This document shows positions 20,654-25,574 of a stretch of 64,000 nucleotides of DNA, piece by piece. A model generated the notes under the pieces. It ran no database searches and had not been told where the DNA came from. It was given only the letters and a program-made list of their open reading frames with translations. The stretch is taken from positions 84,760-148,759 of the forward strand of contig JAJYNJ010000027.1 of the NCBI GenBank assembly GCA_021786385.1, read 5' to 3'. Position 1 is the first letter of the stretch. Each line of letters begins with the position of its first letter. The stretch comes from Chloroflexota bacterium (GTDB lineage Bacteria > Chloroflexota > Limnocylindria > Limnocylindrales > CSP1-4). The position numbers and the translations under genes were made by a program.

Positions 20654-20928
20654 GAAGGGAGACCCTCCGGGTCGTTGCGAGGCGCCCCGCGGAAGCCGCG
20701 GCAGCGTATCCGGATTATAGGCCCGCCCCGCGCGAATGAGCCCGCCCCGCGCGCCACGACGATCAGGCCGTTGCCGGGCGGTCGCTCGCCTGTCGGGGCG
20801 GACGATGCGGGCGGATCGCACGGGCGTGCCCGCCACTCGCATGGCGCCATCGGGCCGCCGCCGCTCGTGGAGTTCGTCGCGTGGCCAGGGCCATGAGCCA
20901 CGGGGCGCTGCTTCTGCCGGCGAAGCGC

Positions 20929-20958
20929 TGGACAAGTCGGGATCGGATCGCGTAGAGT
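20929..20958 (+). promoter_or_regulatory. predicted promoter of the sulfur-assimilation operon leader
   Basis: TGGACA (20929-20934), 18-nt spacer, TAGAGT (20953-20958); TSS expected at about 20965-20969. Confidence 0.55.
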
Positions 20959-20968
20959 CAGAGCCCTC

Positions 20969-21052
20969 ATGAGCGAGCTCCGTCATCTGATGCGTTGCGC
21001 GTGTACCTGTCGCCGGCGAGTGTCGGCCGGGTGCGAGCGCGCCACCATCTAG
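20969..21052 (+). CDS. Cys-rich leader peptide (27 aa, [27 protein letters not shown]); candidate cysteine attenuator uORF
   Basis: ATG AGC GAG CTC CGT CAT CTG ATG CGT TGC GCG TGT ACC TGT ... TGC ... TAG; 4 Cys in 27 codons with a CACTC cluster; begins about 10 nt after a predicted -10 box; about 140 nt upstream of tauE-cysHDN. Confidence 0.6.
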
Positions 21053-21194
21053 CCGGGACGCTCGCCGCTCCCCGCCGATCCGGCCGACCTCGCAGGCCCA
21101 GCGCCCAACGCGTCTGGTCCGCCCCCGATCCTCGGGGTAGCTGCTCCCCTGCAATCGCGGACCAGCGCGTGCCCTGTTACGCGTCGAGGTCCCC

Positions 21195-22256
21195 GTGTCC
21201 GCAATACTCGAGTCACCCCGCCCATCCGGCTTCCGAGCGTCAGGCTCGCCTGCCCTCCCGACCGCCCGCGTCGACCCGCCAACCGAGCTCGTGTCGGAGT
21301 CGCCGAGCTTGGCTGCTCGGGGACTCGGCACGACCGGGCCAACCGTCGCGGCTCCCCTGGTCGCCGCCAGTGACACCGTCCCGCGGCCGCGCAGCGCGGC
21401 CGCCAAGGCTCTCCGCGCGCTCGTCGTGGCGCCCAGCATCGGGCTCTCGATCGCCTTCGGATCGATCGCTGCCGCGCCGTCCGACGACCGCCTCATCCTC
21501 GTGGCCGCCGCCGTCGTCGCCGCGGCAGCGGGTCTCTCGGCCACGACGATCGGTGTCTTCGGCGGCGTCCTCGTGCCGGGACTCCTGCTCCTGGGCATCG
21601 AGCCGCGCGTGGCGGCTCCGATCTCGCTCGTCCTCCAGGTGCTCGTCATGCCGCTCGGCGCGGCCAGCCATGCTGTGGTTGGGCACGTCGAGCGGGCGAT
21701 CACCGTCCCACTGATCGTGGGCGCCATCATCGGGGGCACGGGCGGCGCGCTCGTCTCGTCGACCGTCCCGGCCGAGATCGGAGCGCGGGCGGTGGCCTTC
21801 GTGATCATCGTCGTCGGCGTGATCGTCCTGGCCAGACTGCGAGCCGGGTACGCGGCGGGATGCGTCGGCCACGCGGAGGTCCACGCCGTCCGGATCGGGG
21901 GGATCGGGACGGTCGCCGGCTTCGCGTCGGGGATCTCGGGCGCCGGGTGGGGGCCGATCGCGGTGACGCTCCTGACCCGCTCGGGCGTCGATCCCCGCCA
22001 TGCGGTCGGCAGCTCCCTGGTCGGACGGATCGCCATGGCGGTCGCCGCGCTCGCGATCTACGGCGTCTCGACGGCGGCCACAGGCGGCAGCCGGCTGGAC
22101 CTGCGCCTCCTCGCCGTGCTCCTCGCCGCCTCGGCGGCCGCGATGGTCCCGGGTACGCTGCTCATGGCACGCCTCGGCCGGGGACCGGCAGCGGGGGCAG
22201 TGGCCGTCCTCTCGATCGGTCTCGCGCTCCCGACGCTGCTCACCGGCGGGAGATAG
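21195..22256 (+). CDS. TauE/SafE family sulfite/sulfonate-type membrane transporter
   Basis: Multi-[23 protein letters not shown]...[40 protein letters not shown] start at 21195 preceded by CGAGGTCCCC. Confidence 0.9.
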
Positions 22257-22260
22257 GCCG

Positions 22261-23010
22261 ATGGAACGGCAGCCCAGCAAGCTTCCCCCGATCCCGGTCG
22301 ATGCCGAGGCCCTCGGCGCTCGCGATCTTCTCCGAGTCGCGCTCGAGGCGCTCGGCCGCGACCGGCTCGCCCTGGCGGCCTCCTTCGGCCCTGAAGACAC
22401 GGTGATTCTCGACCTGCTCGTCGGGCTCGAGCCGCGCCCGCGCGTCTTCACGCTCGACACGGGCCGGCTGCCGGACGAGACGTACGAGCTGATCGAGCGC
22501 ATCCGTCGCCGCTACGGGATCGAGATCGAGTTCTATTTCCCGGACGCCGCGGCAGTCGAGGCGATGGTCCGCGCCAACGGCCCGAATCTCTTCTACGAGT
22601 CGCTCGACCACCGCCTCCTCTGCTGCGACGTCCGCAAGGTTCTGCCTCTCCGCCGGGCGCTCGCCACCGTGGACGGCTGGATCACCGGACTGCGCCGTGA
22701 TCAGATCGCGACCCGCGCCCGAACCCCGAAGATCGGCCTCGACCTCGAGCACGGCCTGATCTGGAAGGTCGCCCCGCTCGCCGACTGGACGTCCGCCGAC
22801 GTTTGGGCCTACATCCGCGAGCGCGAGCTCCCCTACAACGCGCTTCACGATCGAGGGTACGCCTCGATCGGCTGCGCGCCGTGCACGCGCGCCGTAGCAC
22901 CTGGCGAGGACCCGCGTGCCGGGCGCTGGTGGTGGGAGCGCCCGGAGAGCCGGGAGTGCGGCCTGCACGTCCCCCACGCCGCGCTCACCGACGGACCGCG
23001 ATCCCGATGA
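22261..23010 (+). CDS. cysH: phosphoadenylyl/adenylyl-sulfate reductase, APS-reductase type
   Basis: LAASFGPEDTVILDLL...TLDTGRLPDETY...LLCCDVRKVLPL...GWITGLRRDQ...IGCAPCTRAV...ECGLH: CC...CxxC cluster-type motif. Confidence 0.94.
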   Translation: MERQPSKLPPIPVDAEALGARDLLRVALEALGRDRLALAASFGPEDTVILDLLVGLEPRPRVFTLDTGRLPDETYELIERIRRRYGIEIEFYFPDAAAVEAMVRANGPNLFYESLDHRLLCCDVRKVLPLRRALATVDGWITGLRRDQIATRARTPKIGLDLEHGLIWKVAPLADWTSADVWAYIRERELPYNALHDRGYASIGCAPCTRAVAPGEDPRAGRWWWERPESRECGLHVPHAALTDGPRSR

Positions 23011-24026
23011 GCAGACGGCGAGGGGACGGGATCCTGCCTGCGACCGCTCTCTTCCGGGCAGAGCTCGGCGGTCCTGCGGCGGGGTCGCCTGACGGTCGCG
23101 ATGGTCCCGGGCGTCGGGCTGGCCGCCATCTCCTCAGCCACCTCGCCGTGCTCGAGGCGGAGGCGATCCACATCTTCCGAGAGGCCGCCGCCGTCTTCGA
23201 CCGTCCCGCGCTCCTCTTCTCGGGCGGAAAGGATTCGCTCCTCCTCTTGCGTCTGGCCGAGAAGGCGTTCCGACCCGGCCGCTTCCCGTTCCCAGTCCTC
23301 CACGTCGACACGGGCCACAACTTCCCCGAGGTCCTCGACTTCCGGGACCGCCGCGTCGCTGAGCTGGGCGAGGAGCTGATCGTCGCCTCCGTCCAGGCGT
23401 CGATCGACCGCGGACGGGTCTGCGAGGAGCCCGGCCCCGATCCCTCGCGGAACCGGCTCCAGACGGTCACCCTCCTCGATGCGATCGCCGAACATGGCTT
23501 CGACGCGCTGTTCGGCGGCGGCCGACGGGACGAGGAGAAAGCCCGGGCGAAGGAGCGGATCTTCAGCCACCGTGACGCGTTCGGGCAGTGGGACCCGCGC
23601 AACCAACGGCCCGAGCTCTGGAGCCTGTACAACGGTCGACTCCGGAAGGGCGAGCACATGCGCGTCTTCCCGATCAGCAACTGGACCGAGCTCGACGTCT
23701 GGCAGTACATCGCCGTCGAGCGGCTGGAGGTGCCGTCGATCTACTTCGCCCATCGGCGGACGGTCGTGCGCCGCGGCGGTCTCTGGCTCGCCGTCTCGGA
23801 CTTCATCCACCCCCGCGACGGCGAGGAGGTGGCGACCCGTACCGTGCGCTACCGGACGGTGGGCGACATGAGCTGCACCGGCGCGGTCTTCTCCTCCGCT
23901 CGGACCGTCGACGAGGTGATCGCCGAGGTCGCCGCGGCGCGGGTTACCGAACGCGGCGCAACCCGCGCCGACGACGCGTTCAGCGAGGCGGCGATGGAAG
24001 ACCGCAAGCGCGAGGGGTACTTCTGA
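23007..24026 (+). CDS. cysD: sulfate adenylyltransferase subunit 2
   Basis: LLFSGGKDSLLLLRLAEKAFRPGRFPFPVLHVDTGHNFPEVLDFRD...GGGRRDEEKARAKERIFS...FPISNWTELDVWQYI; ATGA overlap with cysH. Confidence 0.96.
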   Translation: MSRRRGDGILPATALFRAELGGPAAGSPDGRDGPGRRAGRHLLSHLAVLEAEAIHIFREAAAVFDRPALLFSGGKDSLLLLRLAEKAFRPGRFPFPVLHVDTGHNFPEVLDFRDRRVAELGEELIVASVQASIDRGRVCEEPGPDPSRNRLQTVTLLDAIAEHGFDALFGGGRRDEEKARAKERIFSHRDAFGQWDPRNQRPELWSLYNGRLRKGEHMRVFPISNWTELDVWQYIAVERLEVPSIYFAHRRTVVRRGGLWLAVSDFIHPRDGEEVATRTVRYRTVGDMSCTGAVFSSARTVDEVIAEVAAARVTERGATRADDAFSEAAMEDRKREGYF

Positions 24027-24030
24027 TCCG

Positions 24031-25353
24031 ATGGCGATACTGGGCCTGGCGGGGGCGAGCCCGCCGTCGCATCCGCCGCACTCCGTGTCGGAGCTGCTCC
24101 GTTTCTCGACGGCCGGCTCGGTCGACGACGGCAAGAGCACCCTGATCGGGCGTCTGCTCCACGATTCACGGGCGATTCCCGAGGACCAGCTGGCTGCGCT
24201 GGAGCGAGCCAGTCGACGGCGAGGTTGCGATCGGATCGACCTGGCGCTCCTGACCGACGGCCTCCGAGCAGAGCGCGAGCAGGGGATCACGATCGACGTG
24301 GCCTACCGCTACTTCGCGACGCCCCGGCGCAGGTTCATCATTGCAGACGTGCCGGGCCATCTCCAGTACACCCGGAACATGGTGACCGGCTGTTCGACGG
24401 CCGACCTCACCGTCGTCCTCATCGACGCCCGCCAAGGCGTCGCCGAACAGACCCGGCGCCACGCGATCATCGCCGCGCTCCTCGGGGTTCCTCACCTCGT
24501 CGGCTGTGTGAACAAGATGGACCTCGTCGACTACGACGAGGACGTCTTCACCGCGATCCGAGACGAGTTCGGGGACTTCGCTGGCCGCCTAGGCGTCGCG
24601 GATGTGGCCTGCATCCCGGTTTCGGCTCTCCACGGCGACAACGTCGTCCACCGCTCCGTGGCAACGCCGTGGTACGAGGGCCCGGCGCTCCTCGAGCACC
24701 TCGAGGCGGTCGAGCTCGAGTCGACCCGCGATCTGGTCCGACGACGATTCCCTGTCCAGTGGATCATCCGGGGCTCCCCCGCCCTCGACCCGCGCTACCG
24801 CGCGTACGCCGGCCGGGTCGAGGGCGGAATCTTCCGGCCGGGCGACGAGGTCGTCGCGCTTCCCTGCGGGATCCGCACGCGGATCCGCTCGATCGACACG
24901 TACGACGGGGCGCTGGGCGAAGCCTTCCCGCCGCTCTCGGTCGCGATCCGCCTCGACGACGAGCTAGATCTGGGCCGCGGCGGGATGCTCGTTGGCCCAG
25001 ACGACGTCCCCGAACCGCGCCACGAGCTCGACGCCCTCGTCTGCTGGCTCGGGCAGGCTCCGATCGCCTCGGGCGCTCGGTACCTGCTCCAGCACACGAC
25101 TCGAACCGTCCGGGCGGTCGTCACCGAGATCGTGCAGCGACTCGACATCAATACCCTCGTGCTCGACCCGTCGGCCAGCGCCCTCGGGTTGAACGAGGTT
25201 GGCCGGGTGCGCCTCCGGCTGGCCGAGCCGATCTTCCCGGACGCGTATCGGATCAACCGGGCGACGGGCGCGGCGATCCTCATCGACGAGACGACGAACG
25301 CCACCGTGGGAGCCGTCCTCGTGACGGCCGAGGGCGACGGCTGGCCGCGATGA
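24031..25353 (+). CDS. cysN: sulfate adenylyltransferase subunit 1 (GTPase)
   Basis: LLRFSTAGSVDDGKSTLIGRLLHDS...EREQGITIDVAYRYFATPRRRFIIADVPGHLQYTRNMVTG...VNKMDLVDYDE. Confidence 0.96.
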   Translation: MAILGLAGASPPSHPPHSVSELLRFSTAGSVDDGKSTLIGRLLHDSRAIPEDQLAALERASRRRGCDRIDLALLTDGLRAEREQGITIDVAYRYFATPRRRFIIADVPGHLQYTRNMVTGCSTADLTVVLIDARQGVAEQTRRHAIIAALLGVPHLVGCVNKMDLVDYDEDVFTAIRDEFGDFAGRLGVADVACIPVSALHGDNVVHRSVATPWYEGPALLEHLEAVELESTRDLVRRRFPVQWIIRGSPALDPRYRAYAGRVEGGIFRPGDEVVALPCGIRTRIRSIDTYDGALGEAFPPLSVAIRLDDELDLGRGGMLVGPDDVPEPRHELDALVCWLGQAPIASGARYLLQHTTRTVRAVVTEIVQRLDINTLVLDPSASALGLNEVGRVRLRLAEPIFPDAYRINRATGAAILIDETTNATVGAVLVTAEGDGWPR

Positions 25354-25499: not shown

Positions 25500-25574
25500 T
25501 GGTAGCGGAGGGCGGATTCGAACCACCGACCAAGGGCTTATGAGTCCCCTGCTCTACCACTGAGCTACTCCGCC
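25500..25574 (-). tRNA. tRNA-Met (CAT anticodon)
   Basis: Minus strand GGCGGAGTAGCTCAGTGGTAGAGCAGGGGACTCATAAGCCCTTGGTCGGTGGTTCGAATCCGCCCTCCGCTACCA: cloverleaf, GTTCGAATC T-loop, encoded CCA; anticodon at 25540-25542. Confidence 0.96.

Follow-up and report, generated by a model that had tools for sequence, protein, structure and literature searches.

A probable cysteine-responsive translational attenuator, combining a near-leaderless uORF with a three-segment RNA switch, in Chloroflexota

The leader of a tauE-cysH-cysD-cysN operon from a Chloroflexota bacterium probably acts as a ribosome-mediated, cysteine-responsive translational attenuator, in which a short upstream reading frame (uORF) gates a three-segment RNA switch. 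Its most probable role, judged by its sequence, is to switch on genes for making cysteine when ribosomes are short of that amino acid. The uORF, its conserved Cys codons, the promoter spacing, two mutually exclusive pairings and the gene context are the sequence-based parts of this reading; the cysteine response, its polarity and an action on translation initiation rather than through Rho are what we infer.

Results

The window, that is, the whole stretch of 64,000 nucleotides that was analysed, contains the following elements, numbered from its first letter.

20929-20958, plus strand: sigma-70-like promoter TGGACA-N18-TAGAGT, the sole such site within 20900-21250 (shuffle mean 0.0)
20969-21052, plus strand: near-leaderless uORF of 27 codons, member of a conserved family of 43 copies
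20996-21010, plus strand: putative regulatory Cys codons at 20996, 21002 and 21008 (C-x-C-x-C), the invariant pair being 21002 and 21008
21013-21026, plus strand: local hairpin CCGGC-GAGU-GUCGG overlapping segment A (RNAalifold consensus of 27 copies)
21016-21030, plus strand: segment A, the putative anti-sequestor, inside the uORF, GCGAGUGUCGGCCGG (partner specificity of A:B, z -6.3)
21080-21093, plus strand: segment B, CCGGCCGACCUCGC, able to pair with A or, via GACCUCG, with the Shine-Dalgarno sequence
21108-21170, plus strand: intervening hairpin between B and C, arms 21108-21122 and 21157-21170 (z -3.4 in the window)
21185-21191, plus strand: segment C, the tauE Shine-Dalgarno CGAGGUC, complementary to GACCUCG of B (z -5.6)
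21195-22256, plus strand: tauE/safE, sulfite exporter family, first gene of the operon, GTG start (Pfam PF01925, E 1.2e-21)
22261-23010, plus strand: cysH, (phospho)adenylylsulfate reductase, start codon by eye (NF002537, E 1.2e-77; TIGR02055 above cut-off)
23007-24026, plus strand: cysD, sulfate adenylyltransferase small subunit, start codon by eye (NF003587/TIGR02039 above cut-off)
24031-25353, plus strand: cysN, sulfate adenylyltransferase large subunit (TIGR02034, E 1.1e-159, above cut-off)

The promoter lies where the original prediction placed it, with the -35 hexamer TGGACA at 20929-20934 and the -10 hexamer TAGAGT at 20953-20958 by direct reading of the sequence. Reading likewise bore out the 27-codon uORF and its Cys codons at 20996, 21002, 21008 and 21032, the last of which is not conserved across copies, and Pfam and NCBIfam assigned to the four downstream genes the identities proposed for them. 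The cysD start overlaps the cysH stop, and segment C ends 3 nt ahead of the tauE GTG at 21195. The transcript had been described as leaderless or nearly so; because 10 nt separate the -10 hexamer from the uORF ATG (6-7 nt in most relatives), it can be refined to nearly leaderless, with a 5' UTR of about 0-5 nt. The source genome carries a single leader copy; no Cys uORF was found near its own cysK loci, and a search for DUF4395 in this genome found none. A tRNA gene lies shortly 3' of cysN (25503-25574, minus strand; Rfam RF00005, 65.6 bits).

Searches by pattern and covariance model through 177 genomes from the class and 400 from the phylum gave 43 accepted leader copies from about 12 genera, all within one Chloroflexota family, probably CSP1-4 of the class Limnocylindria (PMC13212565 being among the grounds for this assignment). 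Other families of the same class and phylum returned weak matches only (E 0.03-0.1). The 235-nt window leader has a fold z of -3.3 against dinucleotide shuffles and its whole arrangement recurs in 42 further copies in other genomes, which together argue that the arrangement is more than chance. When the leader was used for DNA-similarity searches, most matches were short, GC-rich and fortuitous, true homologues coming from the core 20993-21042 only; in 100 relatives the matches were 30-43 nt long, 85-91% identical, and all fell inside a part of the uORF coding for 10 residues. Six pattern matches that appear to be one repeated coding gene (L118, L136, L139, L144, L148 and L154) were dropped, and weak model matches without an intact Cys uORF (L220, L223 and L225-L229) were excluded.

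An A...B pattern blind to Cys was also scanned against one genome per species, covering 84,980 species, and found 51 stretches, 14 in Chloroflexi and 37 elsewhere. Every one of the 14 Chloroflexi loci has Cys at codon 0, and 13 have it at both conserved codons; among the 37 other loci, none has Cys at either. That the family is undescribed in this lineage, as had been suspected, holds as far as was searched. Rfam gave nothing for the window leader at E<=1, nothing at the gathering score for the leaders of six relatives and, over the whole window, a tRNA elsewhere only; no NCBIfam family matches the leader, and no paper describing this Chloroflexota leader family was found. Viral contigs scanned with TauE contained no match.

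With the T of the Cys codon at window 21008 taken as 0, Cys is found at codon -6 in 42/43 copies and at codon 0 in 43/43, the latter position being biased by the TGY that the discovery pattern contained. Codon 0 is always TGT (43/43), a codon that accounts for one of 47 Cys codons (about 2%) in the downstream genes, and the second Arg codon is CGA at +9 (window 21017) in 40/43 copies, as against 61 of 959 Arg codons (6%) downstream. These codon preferences indicate selection on the nucleotides and not on the peptide alone; the constant TGT may be caused by either slower decoding or RNA pairing. CGG occupies +6 in 39 copies of the 43, and the conserved part of the peptide consists of C-x-C, R-R (CGG-CGA) and usually P or S. 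The residue after R-R is variable (V, A, G, E or D) and its codon co-varies with segment B; the N- and C-terminal parts of the uORF are not conserved in sequence.

The uORF starts between -45 and -33 in 41/43 copies and usually stops at +45, so placed that C-x-C lies 27-57 nt, usually 45 nt, before the stop. In 39/43 copies a TANNNT box precedes the uORF start by 5-11 nt, some of these starts having been picked by their -10 box; the same box occurs in 0-1/43 at five shifted positions and in 0/43 before the downstream gene. A Shine-Dalgarno sequence ahead of the uORF start was found in 0/43 copies. Some of the gene starts were picked by their Shine-Dalgarno motif; the partner test, the -6 codon and the Cys-blind scan are largely free of such selection biases.

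Across the family, A directly follows the Cys codons within the uORF, B lies past the stop codon, and the downstream Shine-Dalgarno sequence serves as C. The complementarities claimed for the window, A with B and GACCTCG with the tauE Shine-Dalgarno, are present, and both show partner-specific co-variation. In 37 non-redundant copies, B having been chosen by likeness to its consensus, the duplex energy of each segment with its own partner was set against 50,000 re-pairings, and own partners were favoured in both A:B (z -6.3) and B:C (z -5.6). The relatedness of the copies makes the permutation p-values optimistic; five matched controls, equally exposed to kinship, gave no comparable signal. 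Their z values were -0.7 for A with the stretch downstream of B, +2.3 for A with the stretch upstream of B, +0.3 for the stretch downstream of B with C, -2.0 for the stretch upstream of B with C, and -1.2 for A:C, so that a direct A:C pairing was discarded for want of an own-partner signal. Matched changes can be seen by eye in L216 (CUGG:CCAG), in L117 and L135 (GAGCG:CGCUC) and in L219 (GCGGGG:CCCCGC), and in L211 segment A (GAGA), segment B (UCUC) and the Shine-Dalgarno (GAGA) have changed jointly. By these complementarities, A:B and B:C are mutually exclusive, and the latter would sequester the Shine-Dalgarno.

The small hairpin overlapping A (CCGGC-GAGU-GYCGG across copies) has 5 bp, with wobble-conserving changes only. 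The long hairpin previously noted between B and the Shine-Dalgarno is present and its position recurs in relatives, with a mean z of -1.64 across 37 copies (below -1 in 25/37) and stem sequences that differ. No intrinsic terminator was detected in the window leader, and T-rich runs occur in 2/43 leaders only. In the window RNA, the predicted minimum-free-energy structure contains A:B, and the predicted centroid combines the A hairpin with B pairing around the Shine-Dalgarno; both states would thus be present in the ensemble.

The effect of a ribosome was modelled by partition-function folding with its footprint blocked. A ribosome stalled on the -6 Cys codon is predicted to leave the Shine-Dalgarno more accessible than one sitting on A in 12 copies and less accessible in 3 (p 0.0023), a modest effect across copies (mean unpaired 0.27 vs 0.23). 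For the window, the model gives 0.0 B:Shine-Dalgarno pairs in the stalled state vs 5.1 in the free RNA and 6.0 with the ribosome on A, and 14.9 A:B pairs vs 2.2 and 0.0, respectively. A stall at codon 0 of the window copy is predicted to change little (0.08 vs 0.05 free). With the ribosome at the stop codon, A:B still forms in the model and the OFF state is not clear; OFF must therefore depend on continuous ribosome traffic, kinetics or steric hindrance.

Genes of sulfur or cysteine metabolism follow nearly all the leaders, 41/43 copies preceding DUF4395, cysE-cysK, rhodanese or tauE-cysHDN. DUF4395 comes first after the leader in 25 copies, with cysE and/or cysK behind it in 7 of them and rhodanese in 2; cysE-cysK comes first in 13 copies, rhodanese in 2 and tauE-cysHDN in 1, that of the window. 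Among the related leaders, the Cys codons, the near-leaderless start, the competing stems and a sulfur or cysteine gene downstream are all kept, as the conservation check set out in the original prediction looked for. The orthologous tauE loci of relatives have neither leader nor Cys uORF upstream; in L163-L169 the region ahead of tauE holds what reads as cysD on the other strand, and the two genes appear divergent. The usual home of the leader is DUF4395/cysE/cysK, i.e. cysteine synthesis, and its placement before a sulfate-assimilation operon is exceptional.

Several loci show further peculiarities. Most of L163-L169 have a TAGTATA-type -10 box close upstream of tauE, which may itself be leaderless there. 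In L128 (142-250 relative to Cys codon 0) and in the same stretch of L130, DUF4395 has decayed to a short remnant, and leader, Shine-Dalgarno and start are retained before cysE-cysK as if acting via the remnant ORF. A short ORF (e.g. MHSLTRLVHQ*) lies between leader and cysE in L116, L119 and L120, at about +164 to +195; its stop overlaps the cysE start (GTGA), and translational coupling of the two is likely. The remaining first genes are SCO4226-like, assigned by Pfam in L147 and by eye in L224. In L147 an uncharacterised protein and an NMT1-like ABC transporter substrate-binding protein come after this gene, perhaps as a sulfur-uptake operon.

Discussion

The original prediction held that the polarity of the switch could not be foretold. 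A polarity can now be proposed, in which cysteine starvation would favour A:B, free the Shine-Dalgarno and turn the operon on. The uORF would be transcribed nearly leaderless and translated at once. With ample Cys-tRNA, ribosomes would pass the Cys codons and run over A; A being covered, or refolded into its own small hairpin, B would pair with the downstream Shine-Dalgarno (C) and translation of tauE-cysHDN would be off. B would likewise stay on the Shine-Dalgarno if no ribosome were present. When Cys-tRNA is short, the ribosome would halt at the C-x-C codons. Its front would then stop immediately before A, or reach into the 5' arm of the A hairpin, and A would stay free, capture B and release the Shine-Dalgarno, switching the operon on. 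The fold model with blocked footprints agrees in direction with this mechanism, since a stall at -6 is predicted to raise Shine-Dalgarno accessibility.

The same uORF and the same sensing of cysteine might instead act through Rho-dependent transcription termination in the leader, where efficient completion of the uORF would bare a C-rich untranslated stretch to Rho and stalling would protect it. The stretch from stop codon to Shine-Dalgarno is indeed C-rich, no intrinsic terminator is present, and Rho has been proposed for the mycobacterial cys leaders (PMC1262725). However, the partner-specific pairing of B on the Shine-Dalgarno (z -5.6) would be superfluous for Rho control, and a hairpin conserved in position fills the very stretch in question; we consider termination by Rho unlikely. 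The signal, rather than the output, is what differs if the peptide C-x-C-x-R-R-(V/A)-(P/S) itself causes the arrest, prompted by a sulfur compound or the redox state and not by a lack of Cys-tRNA. The strong conservation of C-x-C, R-R (CGG-CGA) and usually P or S would suit an arrest peptide, but the position after R-R is variable, with a codon that co-varies with B, and the Arg codons are fixed at the nucleotide level, which indicates that RNA pairing accounts for the conservation after C-x-C and makes such arrest very unlikely. That the C-x-C-x-R-R nascent chain is a direct sensor of sulfur or redox signals, acting through the A/B/C RNA, appears quite unlikely too; if it were, the leader would stand for a new class of sulfur sensor built on the ribosome, and not for a Cys-tRNA attenuator. 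Much more probable than this arrest-peptide reading is that the leader serves as the general cysteine-regulon switch throughout this uncultured Chloroflexota family, and is the first cysteine attenuator whose translational switch has the support of co-variation.

CxC peptides can bind metals, and the uORF might on that account encode a small Cys-rich protein that binds metal or thiols and acts in trans, co-transcribed with the operon. Its N- and C-terminal parts are unconserved, though, the Arg codons are fixed as nucleotides and A and B co-vary, so that a role in trans is highly improbable. Hairpins and complementarities are common at high GC, and the tauE relatives have no leader, as would be expected of a chance ORF with chance complementarity in GC-rich DNA; against this stand 43 copies with fixed spacing, sulfur genes downstream and the negative controls, and we count coincidence as refuted.

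A ribosome-mediated cysteine attenuator would, by analogy, work like known cysteine and amino-acid attenuators, a likeness of mechanism rather than shown descent. Leaderless short polycysteine ORFs are found upstream of cysteine and sulfur genes in mycobacteria (PMC4633059, Shell et al. 2015; PMC1262725, Seliverstov et al. 2005), and cysteine-responsive attenuation in mycobacteria is credited to Canestrari et al. 2020 (doi 10.1111/mmi.14498) in PMC9031893 and PMC13236596; reviews present the mechanism as (translation) attenuation that depends on cysteine. Both groups, likened here by description and not by sequence, have a leaderless Cys-rich uORF before cysteine or sulfur genes and no intrinsic terminator; the leaderless hallmark is predicted here from a -10 box that precedes the start by 5-11 nt in 39/43 copies. 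In the mycobacterial ORFs, Cys codons form runs close to the stop, and a conserved hairpin was not found there (PMC1262725), whereas in this other phylum C-x-C stands some 14 codons ahead of the stop and is succeeded by a conserved A/B/C switch. The uORFC-8-2 motif upstream of cysS in Rhodobacterales (PMC8632094) resembles the Chloroflexota leader in having conserved uORF Cys codons that overlap a stem, and alternative structures. It differs in its intrinsic terminator, tandem Cys codons and single target cysS, while the Chloroflexota leader would act on the Shine-Dalgarno of cysE, cysK, DUF4395 or cysHDN.

The trp/his attenuators and the erm/cat translational attenuators share with the proposed switch the use of regulatory codons and the selection, by ribosome position, between exclusive stems. 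Here the codons are for the end product of the pathway (Cys at -6 in 42/43 and at 0 in 43/43, with 41/43 sulfur or cysteine contexts), and one of the two exclusive pairings (A:B z -6.3, B:C z -5.6) sequesters the Shine-Dalgarno. As in the trp type, a stall would free the segment just ahead of the ribosome; unlike in the trp/his type, the output would be Shine-Dalgarno sequestration, with three segments instead of four and no stem and U-run before the gene.

Cysteine-responsive leader ORFs have so far been known mainly from Actinobacteria, without conserved structure in comparative analysis. The Chloroflexota family brings a defined three-segment switch backed by matched changes across about 12 genera, and a few point mutations would therefore be enough to test the mechanism. 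The family also places DUF4395, a domain of unknown function, in the cysteine regulon of these Chloroflexota. As the commonest first gene, DUF4395 (PF14340) is thereby tied to cysteine or sulfur metabolism.

A further resemblance, and no more than that, concerns the leaderless Streptomyces lividans 'metL' leader MSTTSDRTPATEATTTPGARCMCRRMCAF upstream of metNIQ, annotated as a methionine attenuator (PMC8079986). It shares C-M-C-R-R with some Chloroflexota copies (PCMCRRRVPAG in L124), but is actinobacterial and annotated for methionine. The peptide contains CMCRRMC (PMC8079986, Table 4), and 'metL' may sense cysteine rather than methionine.
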